Under the pieces are notes generated by a model, which worked only from the letters and a program-made list of their open reading frames with translations, was not told where the DNA came from and made no database searches. 64,000 bases of DNA from Candidatus Eiseniibacteriota bacterium (GTDB lineage Bacteria; Orphanbacterota; Orphanbacteria; Orphanbacterales; Orphanbacteraceae). Of this stretch, positions 8,154 to 60,187 are shown in pieces. The position numbers were made by a program, and so were the translations under genes. The DNA lies in the NCBI GenBank assembly GCA_029262235.1, contig JAJCZU010000008.1, positions 259,621 to 323,620 on the forward strand, given 5' to 3'. Each line of letters begins with the position of its first letter. The stretch's first letter is position 1.

Positions 8154-9443
8154 ATGAAAACGACAGCAACCGCATGGAATCTCGCCCTGGTGGGCCTTGT
8201 GGCCGCGGTCTGCATGGCCCTCGCGGCGCCCCTCGTCCGGGCCGATGGTTACGTTCGGATCGAGGCGGACAGCGACGGCCGGTACAACGTCGGCGTCGGG
8301 TATTCCAGCGACAACAACGACTATTATGATGACGGCGCCTGGTACGAAGACGAACTCGCGCCCTACGGGCGTTGGCGCTACATCGAATCGCTGCAGACCG
8401 AGATGTGGTTCCCGTACGTCGACGAAACCTGGCGTCCGTACACCGACGGCCACTGGATCAACACGAAACACGGCTGGACGTGGGTCGCCTACGAACCGTG
8501 GGGAGACACTCCGCATCACTTCGGGCGCTGGGTCTATCTGAAGCGCGCCGGATGGGGCTGGGTCCCCGGCGATGAATGGGGTCCCGCGTGGGTCACCTGG
8601 GGCGTTGCCGACGGCCATATCGGATGGGCTCCGATCCCGCCCGCCAACTGGGTCTATCACGACCGGTTCGACTACGCCTACTCAGGCAACGTCAGCTACG
8701 GCTACGGCGGCGACTTCGGCTATCACCGCAGTGGCCTCGACTTCAACTTGTGGGTGTTCGTCTCGAACGGACGCTTCTACGACTCCCACGTGCGACTGAA
8801 CCTGGTTTCCGCCGGCAGCTGTGCCGGATGGTTCCAGACACGTCGCGTGCTGCCCATCGGGCCGCGGCTCCACTCGCACTACGTGAGCCGTTATTGCGCG
8901 GCACCGATTCGCACCGTTGTTCTCGATCGTCACAATCATAGCTACGGCAATCACAAGATCGCGTACTACAAGCCGCACGGCCAGACGCAGAAGATCAAGG
9001 AACGCGGCCGCTACGGTGTGTACACGAAACGGCAGCCTGTCTATCGCGCCCAGTCCAAGCGAAGCGCAGACAATAGCCGCAGCGCCAAGATCGTGCCGAA
9101 GTCGAACGTGACCAATCGTTCGAACAAAGCAAACGCGCAATCAACGCGCTACAAGTCGAGCGATACGAGATCCACGCCATCGAAGTCGCAGGTCACGCGC
9201 TCGCAACAGCGATCCGCACCCGACAAGGCGCAGGTCACGCGCTCGCAGAAGCGATCCGCGCCCGACAAATCACAGGTCACGCGTTCGCAGAAACGATCCG
9301 CGCCCGACAAATCGCAGGTCACGCGTTCGCAGAAACGATCCGCGCCGTCCAAGACGACCGTTGCCGAGCGCTCCTCCTCGCGCGACATCAGCGACAAGCG
9401 CTCCGCGCCCTCTCGCTCACGCGACACCAAAAAACGCCGCTGA
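8154..9443 (+). CDS. Exported DUF6600-like protein with basic tandem-repeat tail
   Basis: 429 residues from the ATG at 8154 (GGGAGG about 9 nt upstream). A signal peptide ends near VRADG. The next 170 residues are rich in W, Y and G with repeated GxWxxxxxGWTWVxYEPWG-like units (APYGRWRYIES, ETWRPYTDGHW, WGWVPGDEWGPAWVTWG), the pattern of DUF6600/YXWGXW-type exported proteins of unknown function. Residues about 280-429 are low-complexity and strongly basic. They include four exact-length 14-residue repeats (consensus KSQVTRSQKRSAPD) encoded by 42-bp units at 9183-9350. The tail may bind an anionic partner such as polysaccharide or nucleic acid (inference). A strong terminator follows at once. 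Confidence 0.8.
   Translation: MKTTATAWNLALVGLVAAVCMALAAPLVRADGYVRIEADSDGRYNVGVGYSSDNNDYYDDGAWYEDELAPYGRWRYIESLQTEMWFPYVDETWRPYTDGHWINTKHGWTWVAYEPWGDTPHHFGRWVYLKRAGWGWVPGDEWGPAWVTWGVADGHIGWAPIPPANWVYHDRFDYAYSGNVSYGYGGDFGYHRSGLDFNLWVFVSNGRFYDSHVRLNLVSAGSCAGWFQTRRVLPIGPRLHSHYVSRYCAAPIRTVVLDRHNHSYGNHKIAYYKPHGQTQKIKERGRYGVYTKRQPVYRAQSKRSADNSRSAKIVPKSNVTNRSNKANAQSTRYKSSDTRSTPSKSQVTRSQQRSAPDKAQVTRSQKRSAPDKSQVTRSQKRSAPDKSQVTRSQKRSAPSKTTVAERSSSRDISDKRSAPSRSRDTKKRR
9183..9350 (+). repeat. Four 42-bp tandem repeats inside the DUF6600-like gene
   Basis: Four consecutive in-frame 42-bp units encode KSQVTRSQQRSAPD, KAQVTRSQKRSAPD, KSQVTRSQKRSAPD and KSQVTRSQKRSAPS. The units differ by a few mostly synonymous changes. 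Copy number is likely to vary between strains through slippage or unequal recombination. Confidence 0.9.
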
Positions 9444-9449
9444 TAAAAA

Positions 9450-9480
9450 GGGCGGTCCCTCGGGACCGCCCTTCCTTCTC
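9450..9480 (+). terminator. Rho-independent terminator
   Basis: A perfect 10-bp stem, GGGCGGTCCC (9450-9459) and GGGACCGCCC (9462-9471), with a 2-nt gap and a pyrimidine run rich in T follows the stop at 9443 by 6 nt. It ends the DUF6600-like transcript. Confidence 0.85.
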
Positions 9481-9553
9481 TTTCCGCTCTTTCTCTTCTC
9501 TTCTCTTCCCGCCGCCCTCTTTTCCAACCCTATCTTCGAGCAGAGATGAAACA

Positions 9554-9648
9554 AGCGGTGGAGAAATCGGTTCTCGGATCGGCGAGGCCTCTTTACTTGG
9601 CCATTTGGCCAGGCCGAGCCGTCGAGAGAACTGATTTCTCCAAACGCT
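9554..9648. repeat. Intergenic palindromic element, family 1 (copy A)
   Basis: A long imperfect palindrome. Outer stem GGAGAAATC (9560-9568) pairs with GATTTCTCC (9633-9641). GGTTCTC (9569-9575) pairs with GAGAACT (9626-9632). An internal loop GGAT/TCGA follows, then CGGC-GA-GGCC with GGCC-GA-GCCG, and an apical TGGCC-ATTT-GGCCA hairpin (9598-9611). The same architecture recurs at 39185-39281 with an identical apical TACTTGGCCATTTGGCCAGG but different outer stems. It lies between the 3' ends of two convergent genes and is flanked by pyrimidine-rich tracts (9472-9530, 9649-9697). Confidence 0.75.
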
Positions 9649-9679: not shown

Positions 9680-10576
9680 CTACTCCCCTTCCATCTTAAA
9701 CAAATCCGTACTGAAGTACCGCTCCCCGCGATCGCAAACCAGCGTGACCACGTTCCCGCGGTCGATTCGCTCGGCAACCTTGCGCGCGGCGTAGAGGTTC
9801 GCGCCGGTCGAGATGCCGGCGATGATGCCTTCCTTGCGCGCGATGAGTTTGCCGTTCGCGATCGCGTCTTCGTCCGTGACTTCGAACGTTTCTTCGATCC
9901 GGGCGCGATCGTAAATCGGCGGCTGGTATCCTTCGGAGCTGTGCTTGAGTCCGTCGATGCGGCTCCCCTGGCCCGCGGGCTCCACTGCGTACACTTTCGC
10001 GTCTACGCCGGCCTGTTCGAACGCGCGGCTCACTCCCATGAGACAACCGCCGGTACCGAATCCGCTCACGAACGCCGCCACGTCACCCTTCAGGTCGCGC
10101 ACGATCTCGGCGCCGGTTCCGATGCAGTGCGCGTTCACGTTGTCTTCGTTTTCGTTCTGATCGATATAGAAATATTTCTCCGGATCGGCCGCCGCGAGTT
10201 CCTTGGCGCCGTAAATATGGCTGTCCGGATTGTCTTTCGTCGTAAGGCAGAGTTCGGCTCCCCAGAACGCGAGCATCTTCCTGCGCTCGATCGTTTTGCG
10301 CTCCGACATGAAGAACCGGAGCTTGTAGCCCTTCGCGGCGCACACCATCCCGAGTGCGATGCCGGTGTTACCACTCGTCGCTTCGATGATCGTCATGCCC
10401 GGTTTCAGACGGCCCGACTTCTCGGCCTCTTCGATCATGTGAAGCGCGATGCGATCTTTGAGCGACCCGCTGGGATTGCAGAATTCGAGCTTCGCCCAGA
10501 TCCGCACAGCGGGATTCGGGCTCTGGCTTTTCAGTTCGATCAGTGGCGTATTGCCGATGCACTGCAGAATGCTCAT
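9680..10576 (-). CDS. cysK: PLP-dependent cysteine synthase family protein
   Basis: 298 residues of the O-acetylserine sulfhydrylase / cystathionine beta-synthase fold, making cysteine from an activated serine and sulfide. The PLP lysine is K40 in NPSGSLKDR. The phosphate/substrate loop is EATSGNTGIALG, and SGFGTGGCLMG is the second PLP phosphate-binding glycine loop. I start at ATG 10576 (GAGGA 5 nt upstream, and MSILQCIGNTPLIEL matches family N-termini) rather than the longer frame to 10627. CysK, CysM or a CBS-like variant cannot be separated by eye; the SERKTIERRKML segment is close to CysM/CBS-type enzymes. Confidence 0.85.
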   Translation of the reverse strand: MSILQCIGNTPLIELKSQSPNPAVRIWAKLEFCNPSGSLKDRIALHMIEEAEKSGRLKPGMTIIEATSGNTGIALGMVCAAKGYKLRFFMSERKTIERRKMLAFWGAELCLTTKDNPDSHIYGAKELAAADPEKYFYIDQNENEDNVNAHCIGTGAEIVRDLKGDVAAFVSGFGTGGCLMGVSRAFEQAGVDAKVYAVEPAGQGSRIDGLKHSSEGYQPPIYDRARIEETFEVTDEDAIANGKLIARKEGIIAGISTGANLYAARKVAERIDRGNVVTLVCDRGERYFSTDLFKMEGE

Positions 10577-37205: not shown

Positions 37206-38780
37206 CTAAAGTAAAACGTTCGAAGATTCGGTGCGGCGCGATCCCGCGTCCGCCGTTTGTCGTCTGGTGATCAGTTCGCCGATCGTGCGTATCCCCTGTT
37301 CGATGCGATCTTCCGGTTCTTTTGTAAACGAGAGCCGGAACGTGTTCGTTCCGGAGCCGTCGAGATGAAACAGTTCGCCCGGCGCGAAATTGACGCCGGC
37401 GCGGCGCGCCTCGATCAGAAGATCCACCGTGTTCATGGAAACGGGGAGTTCGATCCAGAGCGACATGCCGCCGTCCGGCTTCGTCCAGCGAACGTCAGAC
37501 GGAAAAAAGCGCTCGATGGCGCTCAGCATGGCCTGCATGCGATTGTTGTTGATCGCGAGAACGCGCTCCAGATGCTCGTCGAGAAGCCCGCGTTCGCAGA
37601 AGCGGTGAATCGCGACCTGGGCGAGGCGGCTCGGCGCGAGATCCGTGTACGTCCGGATCTTGCGGAACGGATCGCAGAACGCTTTCGGAACCGCAAGCCA
37701 TCCGAGGCGGAGCCCCGGGAAGAGCATCTTCGAGAACGTGCCGAGGTAGAGCACGTGCTCGTGCCCTTTGAGCGCCTTGAACGACGCAACCGGCTCGCCG
37801 GTGTAACGGAGATCCGCGTCGAAATGATCTTCGAGCAGCGGGACGCCGTGGCGCACCGCGACTTCGAGCACCTCTTTGCGCCGCGCGAGCGGCATCGTAA
37901 TCCCGGTCGGATTCTGGAAGTTCGGCATCGAATAAATCAGTTTGGCGCTGCGGCGCGTCAGTTCGTCGTCGAGCAGGTCCGGACGCATGCCGTGCTCGTC
38001 CATCGCGATCGGGACGAGTTCCGTTTCGTAGAGCTGAAATACGCCGATCGCGTTGTGATACGTCGGCGACTCCACCATGATGCGGTCACCGCGATCGAAG
38101 AGCAGCTTGCTGACGAGATCGAGGCCCTGCTGCGAACCGCCGAGTATGAAGATTTCGTCCTCGTTGATCGACGCCCCCTGCTCGCGAAGGCGGTTTGCGA
38201 GCCATGCCCGCAGAGGCGGGTACCCTTCGCGTGAGCCGTAATCGAGAATGCCCGGCCCCATTTCGGCCATCGTTTCGTTCATGACCGCGCGGAAGTCTTC
38301 GAGGGGAAAGTGATCGGAGTCGGGCACGAGGCCGCCCAGTTCGATGCGCGGCACGTTGTCGGTAACGGAGAGCCGGGCGAGGGCGTCAGGTCCCGATCGC
38401 GTGCGGCGCGACAGCGTGTGCTCGATGCTTCCGCGATTCGCGCCGCGGGGTCGGTTCCGGCCGCGCCCTGTCGGGGCCGCTTCGCCGGTACGAACGCCCG
38501 CGCGGTCCGGACCGCCCATGATCCCACTCGGGCCACGGTCGCCGACATACGTACCGCTCCCGACGCGCGTTTGGACCGAGCCGCGGCGTTCGAGTTCGGA
38601 ATAAGCCTGGGCGACGGTGTTACGGTTCACGCTAAGCAGAACCGCGAGCCGCCTGATCGACGGCAGGCGCTCTCCCGCCCCGAGCTCGCCTTCACGCACG
38701 AGCGCGTCGATGCCGTCCGCGATCTGCTGATGGATCGGCCTGGTTTCCGATCGATCTATGACAATGTTCTGCATGAGCAT
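37206..38780 (-). CDS. pdxR: MocR-family regulator (GntR wHTH plus aminotransferase domain), PdxR-like
   Basis: 524 residues. Residues about 12-80 are a GntR winged helix ([51 protein letters not shown]). The remainder is a fold-type I aminotransferase-like domain with [16 protein letters not shown], whose K would bind PLP. MocR proteins next to pdxST are usually PLP-sensing activators named PdxR. Here it is upstream and co-directional with pdxST, whereas PdxR genes are usually divergent. ATG 38780 fits the promoter at 38812-38840 with a 25-nt leader, ruling out the longer frame. Confidence 0.8.
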
Positions 38781-38876: not shown

Positions 38877-38960
38877 GTGGGGGTGGGTCCTGACGCGCCG
38901 GGACACCCCGATCTCGACGGGGCTCGATCGGGGCCCCGTCCGGCGCGCCACCCACCCCAC
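38877..38960. repeat. Intergenic palindromic element, family 2 (copy C)
   Basis: Stem GTGGGGGTGGGT (38877-38888) pairs with ACCCACCCCAC (38950-38960) with one bulged G. CGCGCCG (38894-38900) pairs with CGGCGCG (38941-38947). Inside, CCCCGATC (38906-38913) pairs with GATCGGGG (38926-38933), and its loop GACGGGG (38916-38922) pairs with CCCCGTC (38934-38940), a possible H-type pseudoknot. The same layout recurs at 59545-59625. A purine tract (38962-39047) follows. Confidence 0.75.
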
Positions 38961-38961
38961 T

Positions 38962-39184
38962 TTTCGAGCGAGAAGAAGGGGGAAGGGAAAAGGGAATAGA
39001 AAGGAGATGGAGAGAAGAAAGAGGAGAAAGAGAATGGAGGGCCAAGGGGAGCCGGAACTGCATGGGAACAGAAAGAGAGGACAGGATCGGGGCGTCTGGG
39101 GACTGACACGCTCCCCGGGCACGACTCCTGACTCGCCTCCAGGGTGCCGGTCCGGAAGTCGGCGAGGAATACGGGACGGCGAGT
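38962..39184. other. Polypurine tract and featureless spacer
   Basis: Between family-2 copy C and family-1 copy B lies a stretch that is almost entirely A/G on the plus strand to about 39047, followed by mixed sequence. I see no coding pattern in any frame. Confidence 0.5.
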
Positions 39185-39281
39185 GAGGCGCGAGGAGTTG
39201 TTCTCCGTATCCCGCTCGGCCTCCGTACTTGGCCATTTGGCCAGGTCGAGCGGGTCGAGGAGAACAACGACCTCGCGCCTC
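39185..39281. repeat. Intergenic palindromic element, family 1 (copy B)
   Basis: GAGGCGCGAGG (39185-39195) pairs perfectly with CCTCGCGCCTC (39271-39281). GTTGTTCTCC (39197-39206) pairs perfectly with GGAGAACAAC (39259-39268). An internal loop GTAT/TCGA follows, then CCCGCTCGGCC (39211-39221) with GGTCGAGCGGG (39244-39254), and the apical TGGCC-ATTT-GGCCA. Copy A at 9554-9648 has the same order of stems, internal loop and apical sequence. Confidence 0.8.
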
Positions 39282-39344: not shown

Positions 39345-40394
39345 ATGAGTGCTGCCCGTACCATTATTACCGTTCTGTGCATGGTCGCCGGATTCGCCGC
39401 GACGTTGTCGCTGATCCCGTTCGAGGCGTGGCCGGTCGAGCTTGCGGCAAGCTTCCGCCTGCAGATCGCCGTGGTCGCAACGCTGGCGGCTGCGCTGGCG
39501 CTCGGCCTGCGGGCCCGCGCGCCGGCCATGATCGCGGGAGCCGCGGCCCTGATCTGCTGGGCTTCTGTCCTTCCGTTTGCCGTCCCCGGGCCGAAGGACG
39601 ATACGGCGGAGGCGTTTGGGCGGGAGGCCTCTTCATTCCGCGTTCTGACGATCAACCTCGAATGGTCGAATCGAAATGCAAATGCCGTGCTCGGCGCGGT
39701 GCGCGAGGCGAACCCGGACATCCTCGTCCTTCAGGAAGTGGACAACTGGTGGCGCGAGCAGTTCGGCGCGCTCACGGACATCTTTCCGATGCAGCGATTC
39801 GATCCCCTTTCGCGCCGGCCGGGAGTCGCGGTTCTTCTCGGGAAGAAGATCGAACTCCGCGACGAGGCGTGGCTGCCGCTTCACGGACGCCCGTATGCCG
39901 ATTTCGTGCTCGCGGTCGCGCGGGAAGGCGGCTCCGGATCGGAGGGTGGCCTCGAATCGCCCGGCTCGACAATGGCGCCCGCGTTTCGCCTTACGGCGCT
40001 GCATGCGCTCCCGCCACGGTCGGCCCTGCTTTATCGCGCGCGGAAACGCCAGCTCGACGACGTGCGCGGGCATCTGCTCGCGCACGCAACGACGGAACCG
40101 CAGCTCGTGGTCGGCGACTTCAACACGACGATCTGGTCCCCTTCCTATAGAAAATTCACGCGTGAACTGCATCTCGAACGGGCTCGCCTCGGCTACGGTC
40201 TCGTGCCCACATGGCCTACATGGAATACGTTGCTTCAAGTGCCGATTGACCATATTCTGCACTCGCCAGGTTTCGTCGCGACCAATACGAGATCGATCAC
40301 GATCCCGGGCAGCGACCATCACGGCCTCCTCGCCGACGTGCGACTGAAAGCGCACGCACACGGGGACGAGCCTGCACCGGCGAAGGATTCATGA
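39345..40394 (+). CDS. Membrane-anchored endonuclease/exonuclease/phosphatase-fold protein
   Basis: 349 residues. Three hydrophobic segments occupy about 1-90, then an EEP domain: VLTINLEWSNRNANAVLGAV, DILVLQEVDNWW (metal-binding E), QLVVGDFNTTIW (D and N), and GSDHHGLLADVRL (catalytic H). EEP members cleave nucleic acids, phosphoinositides or other phosphodiesters; the substrate here is unknown. ATG 39345 is preferred to ATG 39333. A TATGCT at 39332-39337 would be a very close -10, so the promoter is uncertain. The stop overlaps the next start (ATGA). Confidence 0.8.
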   Translation: MSAARTIITVLCMVAGFAATLSLIPFEAWPVELAASFRLQIAVVATLAAALALGLRARAPAMIAGAAALICWASVLPFAVPGPKDDTAEAFGREASSFRVLTINLEWSNRNANAVLGAVREANPDILVLQEVDNWWREQFGALTDIFPMQRFDPLSRRPGVAVLLGKKIELRDEAWLPLHGRPYADFVLAVAREGGSGSEGGLESPGSTMAPAFRLTALHALPPRSALLYRARKRQLDDVRGHLLAHATTEPQLVVGDFNTTIWSPSYRKFTRELHLERARLGYGLVPTWPTWNTLLQVPIDHILHSPGFVATNTRSITIPGSDHHGLLADVRLKAHAHGDEPAPAKDS

Positions 40395-59544: not shown

Positions 59545-59625
59545 GTGGCGGGTCCTGTCGCGCCGCGACACCCCACACCTCGTCAGGCTCGGTGCGGGGT
59601 CCCCGTCCGGCGCGCCACCCGCCAC
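59545..59625. repeat. Intergenic palindromic element, family 2 (copy D)
   Basis: GTGGCGGGT (59545-59553) pairs with ACCCGCCAC (59617-59625). CCTGT follows, then CGCGCCG (59559-59565) with CGGCGCG (59608-59614). Inside, CCCCACACC (59571-59579) pairs with GGTGCGGGG (59591-59599) with one A-C mismatch. Relative to copy C, a T-A pair in the outer stem becomes C-G and the inner stem is largely rebuilt. The pseudoknot pairing possible in C is not possible here. A purine-rich tract follows (59661-59712). Confidence 0.75.
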
Positions 59626-59741
59626 GGTCCCGCACAGGACAACCTCAACACCCCTCGCCCGCGAGGGGAAAGGGGAAAGGAGATAAGAGGGGGAAGGAGA
59701 AAGAAAGGGATCGGAGTATCCATTCCCCATCCCCTCCTATC

Positions 59742-60166
59742 CCCTCCTGTTCCTTACTTCGCGCGGAGGCGTCGGCACTGCCGCAGCATAGGACGGGGAA
59801 TGAGTACTCGAATGAATGCGAAACTCCCTCCTCCCGCCCTCGTGCATCGGCCCCCGCAGGCCGAGCCCCATTGGAGGACCGCGGGCACGGTGCCCCTCGT
59901 TCCGAACCCGATGACAGACGGTCCGACAGGGCGAGGCCGAGAGGGAAACCTATCTCCTCCCACTCCCTCCTGTTCCTCACTTCGCGCGGAGGCGTCGGCA
60001 CTGCCGCAGCATAGGACGGGGAATGAGTAATCGAATGAATGCGAAACTCCCTCCTCCCGCCCTCGTGCATCGGCCCCCGCAGGCCGAGCCCCATTGGAGG
60101 ACCGCGGGCACGGTGCCCCTCGTTCCGAACCCGATGACAGACGGTCCGACAGGGCGAGGCCGAGGA
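59742..60166. repeat. 223-bp tandem duplication upstream of top6B
   Basis: Unit 1 (59742-59964) and unit 2 (59965 to about 60166) are nearly identical, with a period of exactly 223 bp. The two differences I saw are TTCCTTAC versus TTCCTCAC and AGTACTCG versus AGTAATCG. Open frames exist on both strands but show low-complexity translations, no ribosome sites, and the same peptide twice because of the duplication. I treat the region as non-coding. Confidence 0.85.
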
Positions 60167-60187
60167 GGCCGATACACGAGGGCGGGA
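60055..60187. repeat. 133-nt foldable element closed by a 21-bp inverted repeat
   Basis: Arms 60055-60075 and 60167-60187 are complementary over 21 bp with a single C-A mismatch (60068/60174). Inside, GGACCG (60099-60104) pairs with CGGTCC (60142-60147), and GGGCA-CGG-TGCCC forms a hairpin (60106-60118). Unit 1 of the tandem duplication has only the left arm. It could be a structured RNA or a small MITE-like element with terminal inverted repeats. Confidence 0.6.

Follow-up and report, generated by a model that had tools for sequence, protein, structure and literature searches.

The palindrome at positions 39185-39281 of the window, the 64,000-nt stretch of DNA analysed here, belongs to a dispersed repeat family in which a hairpin core of about 55-100 nt is conserved. 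It is the '+' strand of this core, the one in a pyrimidine context, that folds; its apical head is fixed and its internal loops are of the purine (G.A) type. With moderate confidence we read the family as a non-autonomous mobile palindromic repeat of the REP/RPE kind, confined to one genus and spread by head-recognised hairpin copying, with outer arms that arise locally. Selection for an RNA is usually proved by compensatory changes in its stems. Here, some 90 copies within a single genome combine a strand-specific inner zone with an outer zone of strand-symmetric, locus-private pairing, and selection on a shared RNA hardly explains the pairing of the outer zone. With this family it can be tested whether long hairpins in bacteria are made and kept by DNA-level template switching. 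It also gives this lineage a REP/RPE-like family for which no transposase is known, and we found no such family described there.

Two copies in the window

Two copies of the hairpin, A and B, are considered first, with the following features in window coordinates:

39185..39281, + strand: Family-1 (class 1) hairpin, copy B; fold z -8.9, covariance-model match 120.6 bits
39226..39245, + strand: conserved head of copy B, TACTTGGCCATTTGGCCAGG, a 5' bulge plus an apical GGCC-ATTT-GGCC hairpin
39211-39222/39243-39254: arms of the inner stem of copy B
39197..39206, + strand: left arm of the middle stem of copy B, pairing with 39259-39268, in the zone of strand-specific mismatches
39259..39268, + strand: right arm of the middle stem of copy B, pairing with 39197-39206
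39185..39195, + strand: left arm of the outer stem of copy B, pairing with 39271-39281
39271..39281, + strand: right arm of the outer stem of copy B, pairing with 39185-39195
9554..9648, + strand: Family-1 hairpin, copy A, an inverted repeat; fold z -8.5, covariance-model match 115.5 bits
9594..9613, + strand: conserved head of copy A, the same 20 nt as in copy B

Folding bears out where a sequence-only reading had placed copy B and its three stems, which measure 11, 10 and 11-12 bp: positions 39175-39295 fold with a minimum free energy of -78.3 kcal/mol, whereas 200 shuffles give -44.4 ± 3.8 (z = -8.9). Copy B lies in the gap between the divergent predicted genes 37206-38780(-) and 39345-40394(+), copy A between the convergent genes 8154-9443(+) and 9680-10576(-), and both belong to the window's set of seven short-gap inverted repeats that measure 20 nt or more. 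The 20-nt head is identical in the two copies, as had been claimed, with a chance expectation of 0.00. The internal loop, said to be kept, is similar but not identical (GTAT/TCGA in copy B, GGAT/TCGA in copy A), and the statement that the outer stems pair perfectly in both copies is slightly overstated: copy A has a GA/GA mismatch in its inner stem and a G.T pair in its middle stem. An Rfam scan of the window gave no match at the gathering score, and below threshold there were only chance miRNA-like matches.

Family size and taxonomic range

The genome around the window (G000; 4.47 Mb in 11 contigs, 95.5% complete) contains 34 matches to the head pattern at up to two mismatches, against 0 for a reversed-pattern control. 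A covariance-model search of the genome, which the sequence-only reading had proposed as the test of its claim, reveals many more copies, and their stem differences preserve pairing. Models built from 35 copies (R1, class 1) and from 21 with a second type of head (R2, class 2) together find about 92 distinct copies; the class 1 head is GGCCTCCGTACTTGGCCATTTGGCCAGG and the class 2 head GAGGCCCATTGGCCGTACGCCAGGACGAG. Some copies form arrays (C7:123683-124554, C8:381143-381988 and C8:128896-129355, given as contig:position). The first two of these (L045 and L048) are paralogous, with two class-1 sub-families in the same order and in opposite orientations, within otherwise unrelated gene neighbourhoods.

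The sister species G001 (depositor's name Gemmatimonadetes bacterium SS_bin_27) yielded a handful of family matches from a fragmented assembly of 830 contigs, 82% complete, and five other members of the family-level lineage, in four genera, yielded zero copies. The repeat is found only in one genus, within a lineage that is thinly sampled, since a phylum-wide search returned seven genomes, all from one family. A phage or plasmid origin was rejected, as viral contigs contain no exact pattern match and plasmids no blastn match. No earlier published description of the family was located among open-licence papers.

Covariation and the strand-specific inner fold

Class 1 copies show two-sided changes in 17 of the 25 pairs, with 89% of cells paired and a covariation score of 0.333, compared with 0.135 for shuffled data; in slid structures the pairing drops to at most 48%. 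In class 2, 94% of cells are paired and the score is 0.235, compared with 0.111. None of 500 shuffles reached the observed score in either class, with the reservation that kinship among copies inflates covariation shuffles of this kind. The conserved head and the stems that vary while keeping their pairing, first described from copies A and B, are thus a genome-wide property of both classes. Covariation does not by itself prove selection for an RNA.

Because relatedness inflates shuffle statistics, we turned to strand-specific mismatches, scored strand-symmetrically: where a structure matters on one strand, G.T and G.A should be tolerated, whereas A.C and C.T, their complements, should not. 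In class 1, the distinct contexts located 17-30 nt away from the head include 22 G.T against 2 A.C and 3 G.A against 0 C.T, whereas at 28-60 nt the corresponding counts are 23 and 26, and 13 and 14. Distinct events in class 2 are few (2 G.T v 2 A.C). A whole-stem count of G.T v A.C (90 v 54 in class 1; 14 v 34 in class 2) is misleading because it mixes fixed head positions with the outer zone, and the split by distance resolves it for class 1. The asymmetry therefore marks the inner part, but not the outer, as constrained as a single-stranded '+' fold, RNA or ssDNA: within about 35 nt of the head, the '+' strand of class 1 is the folding strand. G.T pairing within REP stems has been noted earlier (PMC3733652). 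The suggestion of selection on structure accordingly stands for this inner zone of class 1, but does not extend to the outer arms, which are strand-symmetric and locus-specific. Outer covariation of this kind is better explained by inverted DNA copying or by insertion into a palindrome than by slow compensation.

Outer arms are private to each locus

Beyond 35 nt from the head, complementarity between the left and right flanks is 6.0, against 1.1 ± 1.5 for shuffled partners. Class-2 copies whose cores are, pair by pair, 0.9 or more identical (mean 0.93) retain an identity of 0.57-0.63 in the first 5 nt outward and 0.2-0.35 beyond, while their arms pair within each copy (6.6 vs 1.4 ± 1.6; 0 of 20000 permutations). 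Substitution with compensation cannot easily account for both an intact core and wholly replaced arms, and the outer arms are most simply read as locally acquired. A single element-free site, that of C4:769230, argues for local copying of one arm: the alignment with the sister there takes in the right arm but not the left. Orthologous copies at C3:367089 show a coordinated change, a T/A pair inserted in both arms.

On the reading that we prefer, copying would proceed through a single-stranded hairpin, with a putative trans-acting enzyme recognising the head. The outer arms would not be inherited with the core but would arise at each locus by one of two routes: replication forks may change templates at the hairpin and so duplicate the adjacent arm or host flank in inverted orientation, or the core may land in existing short hairpins. 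Either route would give each copy a self-pairing stem unlike those of the other copies. Template switching, which is documented as creating and mending stems (PMC8794818), is slightly preferred, because it fits the one-arm alignment at C4:769230 and the coordinated arm changes at C3:367089; landing in existing hairpins is suggested by arms that look like terminators, yet the readable sister sites are without such hairpins. An element that carries the head only, and builds a long perfect hairpin with private arms by inverted copying of adjacent host DNA, is a version of the mechanism that we consider doubtful.

A separate explanation makes the outer arms old target hairpins of the host, for example terminators, into whose loops the core inserts. 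The abrupt boundary between core and arms speaks for it, as do the arms themselves, unrelated between copies and self-complementary. Several class-2 copies (C2:405469, C8:67776 and C4:106727) resemble terminators of A-tract, stem and T-tract split by the core, and insertion sequences that target REP palindromes are known (PMC1525189). However, at the element-free G001 sites corresponding to C4:941775, C4:48058, C4:726418 and C4:948959 the two arms are not present as a hairpin, within the limits that divergence sets to this test, and the T content past the stems is low on average. We regard this explanation as unlikely.

Genomic position and polarity

The copies are predominantly intergenic (80 of 86 placeable copies). 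The intergenic copies occupy 37 convergent, 38 codirectional and 5 divergent gaps, compared with 29/82/46 for all intergenic gaps that span 100 nt or more within the same fetched DNA, with genes from a home-made caller. Their orientation is strongly polar, the '+' strand having its right side turned to the closest gene border: a gene 3' end lies within 150 nt to the right of the '+' strand in 44 copies and to the left in 10 (p = 3e-6), with a median distance to the gene 3' end of 36 nt on the right and 332 on the left. Gene 5' ends are found to the right in 13 copies and to the left in 2. Inverted neighbours within 600 nt are in the '-+' arrangement 15 times and in the '+-' arrangement 0 times; a composite transposon bounded by the '-+' pairs is ruled out, as the enclosed DNA is unrelated between pairs. 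Neither strand has a U-tract directly past the stem (T makes up a fraction of 0.15-0.28 of the next 8 nt), which rules out an intrinsic terminator. Both '+' strand flanks are pyrimidine-rich. Long GA-rich or TC-rich intergenic tracts also occur, for example at window positions 38960-39060 and 9478-9530, and the polarity of the repeat tracks the pyrimidine-rich strand.

Element-free sites and in-frame insertions

G001 DNA is about 87-93% identical to G000 across shared regions, and comparison of the two species reveals sites with and without the repeat. Well-aligned G001 sites without a copy correspond to C4:941775, C4:48058, C4:726418, C4:769230, C4:948959 and C8:67776, while the copies at C4:79356, C6:112868 and C3:367089 are common to both species. 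Headless remnants seem, from our reading of the alignments, to persist in G001 at C2:405469 and C2:258004, and at C2:342403 the sister contig breaks off. The pair of copies at C4:940907/941030 coincides with 177 bp (59 codons) that are extra in G000 and leave the gene in frame; the gene product is membrane-protein-like, and where the G001 protein reads GGRHRDAATPPARGHLFAM the G000 protein has about 58 residues more. No target-site duplication or exact boundary is visible, the boundaries being blurred by the 7-15% divergence and fragmentation of the sister assembly. At some of the sites the sister may have lost a copy, rather than G000 having gained one. From these comparisons the repeat family looks mobile.

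The DnaE polymerase gene (C2:113646-117968; L089:4647-8966) encodes two inserts of about 185 residues relative to Thermus DnaE, at query positions 81-287 and 992-1179, with three repeat copies inside. These inserts contain nested palindromic repeats of at least two families, and the gene remains one open frame. No DnaE orthologue was found in the sister assembly.

One shared copy behaves differently from its surroundings. The gene before C4:79356 is, in our reading of the ribosomal-protein/rpoA gene order, rplQ, and the copy after it is nearly identical in the sister whereas the intergenic flanks diverge; it is better conserved even than the adjacent coding DNA. This hints at a host function for the copy, at least there. 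In the sister copy (L111, G001:C595, 427-559), a 26-bp insert in the right arm is itself a small hairpin, GTGCAGCC-GGA-GGCTGCAC.

The conservation after rplQ is among the observations expected of a host structured RNA (a 3'-UTR element, antisense RNA or terminator-like insulator) that is transcribed from the '+' strand and kept paired by selection. Such an RNA would also account for the strand-specific tolerance of G.T and G.A near the head, the strong covariation in both classes, and the placement of copies next to gene 3' ends with enrichment between convergent genes. It is nevertheless distinctly unlikely as an explanation of the family: copies are absent from orthologous sister sites, some lie in frame within genes, the other genera of the lineage are without copies, the missing U-tracts set the repeats apart from standard intrinsic terminators, and no Rfam family matches at threshold.

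Comparison with known repeat systems

The sequence-only reading had offered a REP-like element with a dedicated transposase as one of three possibilities. The REP-like part is the best of the three, the repeat being dispersed, polar and mobile, but no such transposase was found: G000 has no match to the IS200-type or RAYT transposase (PF01797), although positive controls worked, and a RAYT-driven REP was rejected for this genome. REPs are dispersed downstream of genes or between convergent genes and occur in inverted pairs, with complementary stem changes in sub-families and G.T pairs (PMC3733652), and the repeat described here is likewise intergenic, 3'-flanking or convergent, and found in inverted pairs. 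The GTAG/CGTC REPs measure 20-40 nt and have stems of 5-13 bp; one of their ends carries the tetranucleotide GTAG or CGTC, which stays unpaired (PMC3733652). By contrast, the present repeat has a core of 55-100 nt, hairpins of up to ~140 nt and no end tag: class-2 identity reaches background within 5 nt outward on both sides, and the conserved columns of class 1 are located in the head. The lack of a RAYT is a further difference from GTAG REPs.

Rickettsia palindromic elements (RPEs) are palindromes of 100-150 nt, with many families per genome and in-frame insertions in genes (PMC10969869). They are assigned to the CGTC type, which has no dedicated transposase, and the dnaE gene of Rickettsia carries a REP element; REP-type insertions are also reported in DnaE2/DnaE and repair genes (PMC3733652). 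In-frame palindromes within genes, seen here in the 177-bp insertion and the DnaE inserts, are a likeness to RPEs. The repeat differs from them in its unrelated lineage, its mostly intergenic location with strict polarity, its conserved centre with locus-specific arms and its lack of a CGTC end tag. Hairpins made by template switching (PMC8794818) share a mutational mechanism by which perfect stems can be both formed and restored, which fits the coordinated changes in orthologous arms, but they form no repeat family, and their origin leaves the dispersal and the fixed head unexplained.

ERIC/Correia-type MITEs are also imperfect palindromes of about 100-150 bp that flank genes in variable copy number, and a classical MITE, two terminal inverted repeats moved by the trans-acting transposase of an insertion sequence, would suit the inverted-repeat anatomy, the copy number, the presence and absence between species and the in-frame insertions; it is very improbable, as MITEs conserve their ends, whereas this repeat conserves its centre and has ends that are non-homologous between copies. 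In addition, no target-site duplication could be seen across boundaries blurred by the divergence of the sister, and the conserved '-+' pairs enclose unrelated DNA. We file the repeat with the REP/RPE kind despite its missing REP tag, its larger size, the absence of a RAYT and its inversion of the MITE rule.

Other repeats nearby

Window positions 60055-60187 contain an inverted repeat that is not of Family 1; its 24-nt arms are 92% complementary and stand 85 nt apart. A second, unrelated family of hairpin repeats, GACGGACGGGGCCCC...GGGTCCGTCGTGACAGGACCCG, occurs at the following positions:

38881-38958 of the window (C8:298501-298578): second hairpin family
59547-59627 of the window (C8:319167-319247): second hairpin family
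L037:10310-10420: second hairpin family

This second family has about 20 matches in G000 and 25 in the sister species, and often adjoins Family-1 copies.
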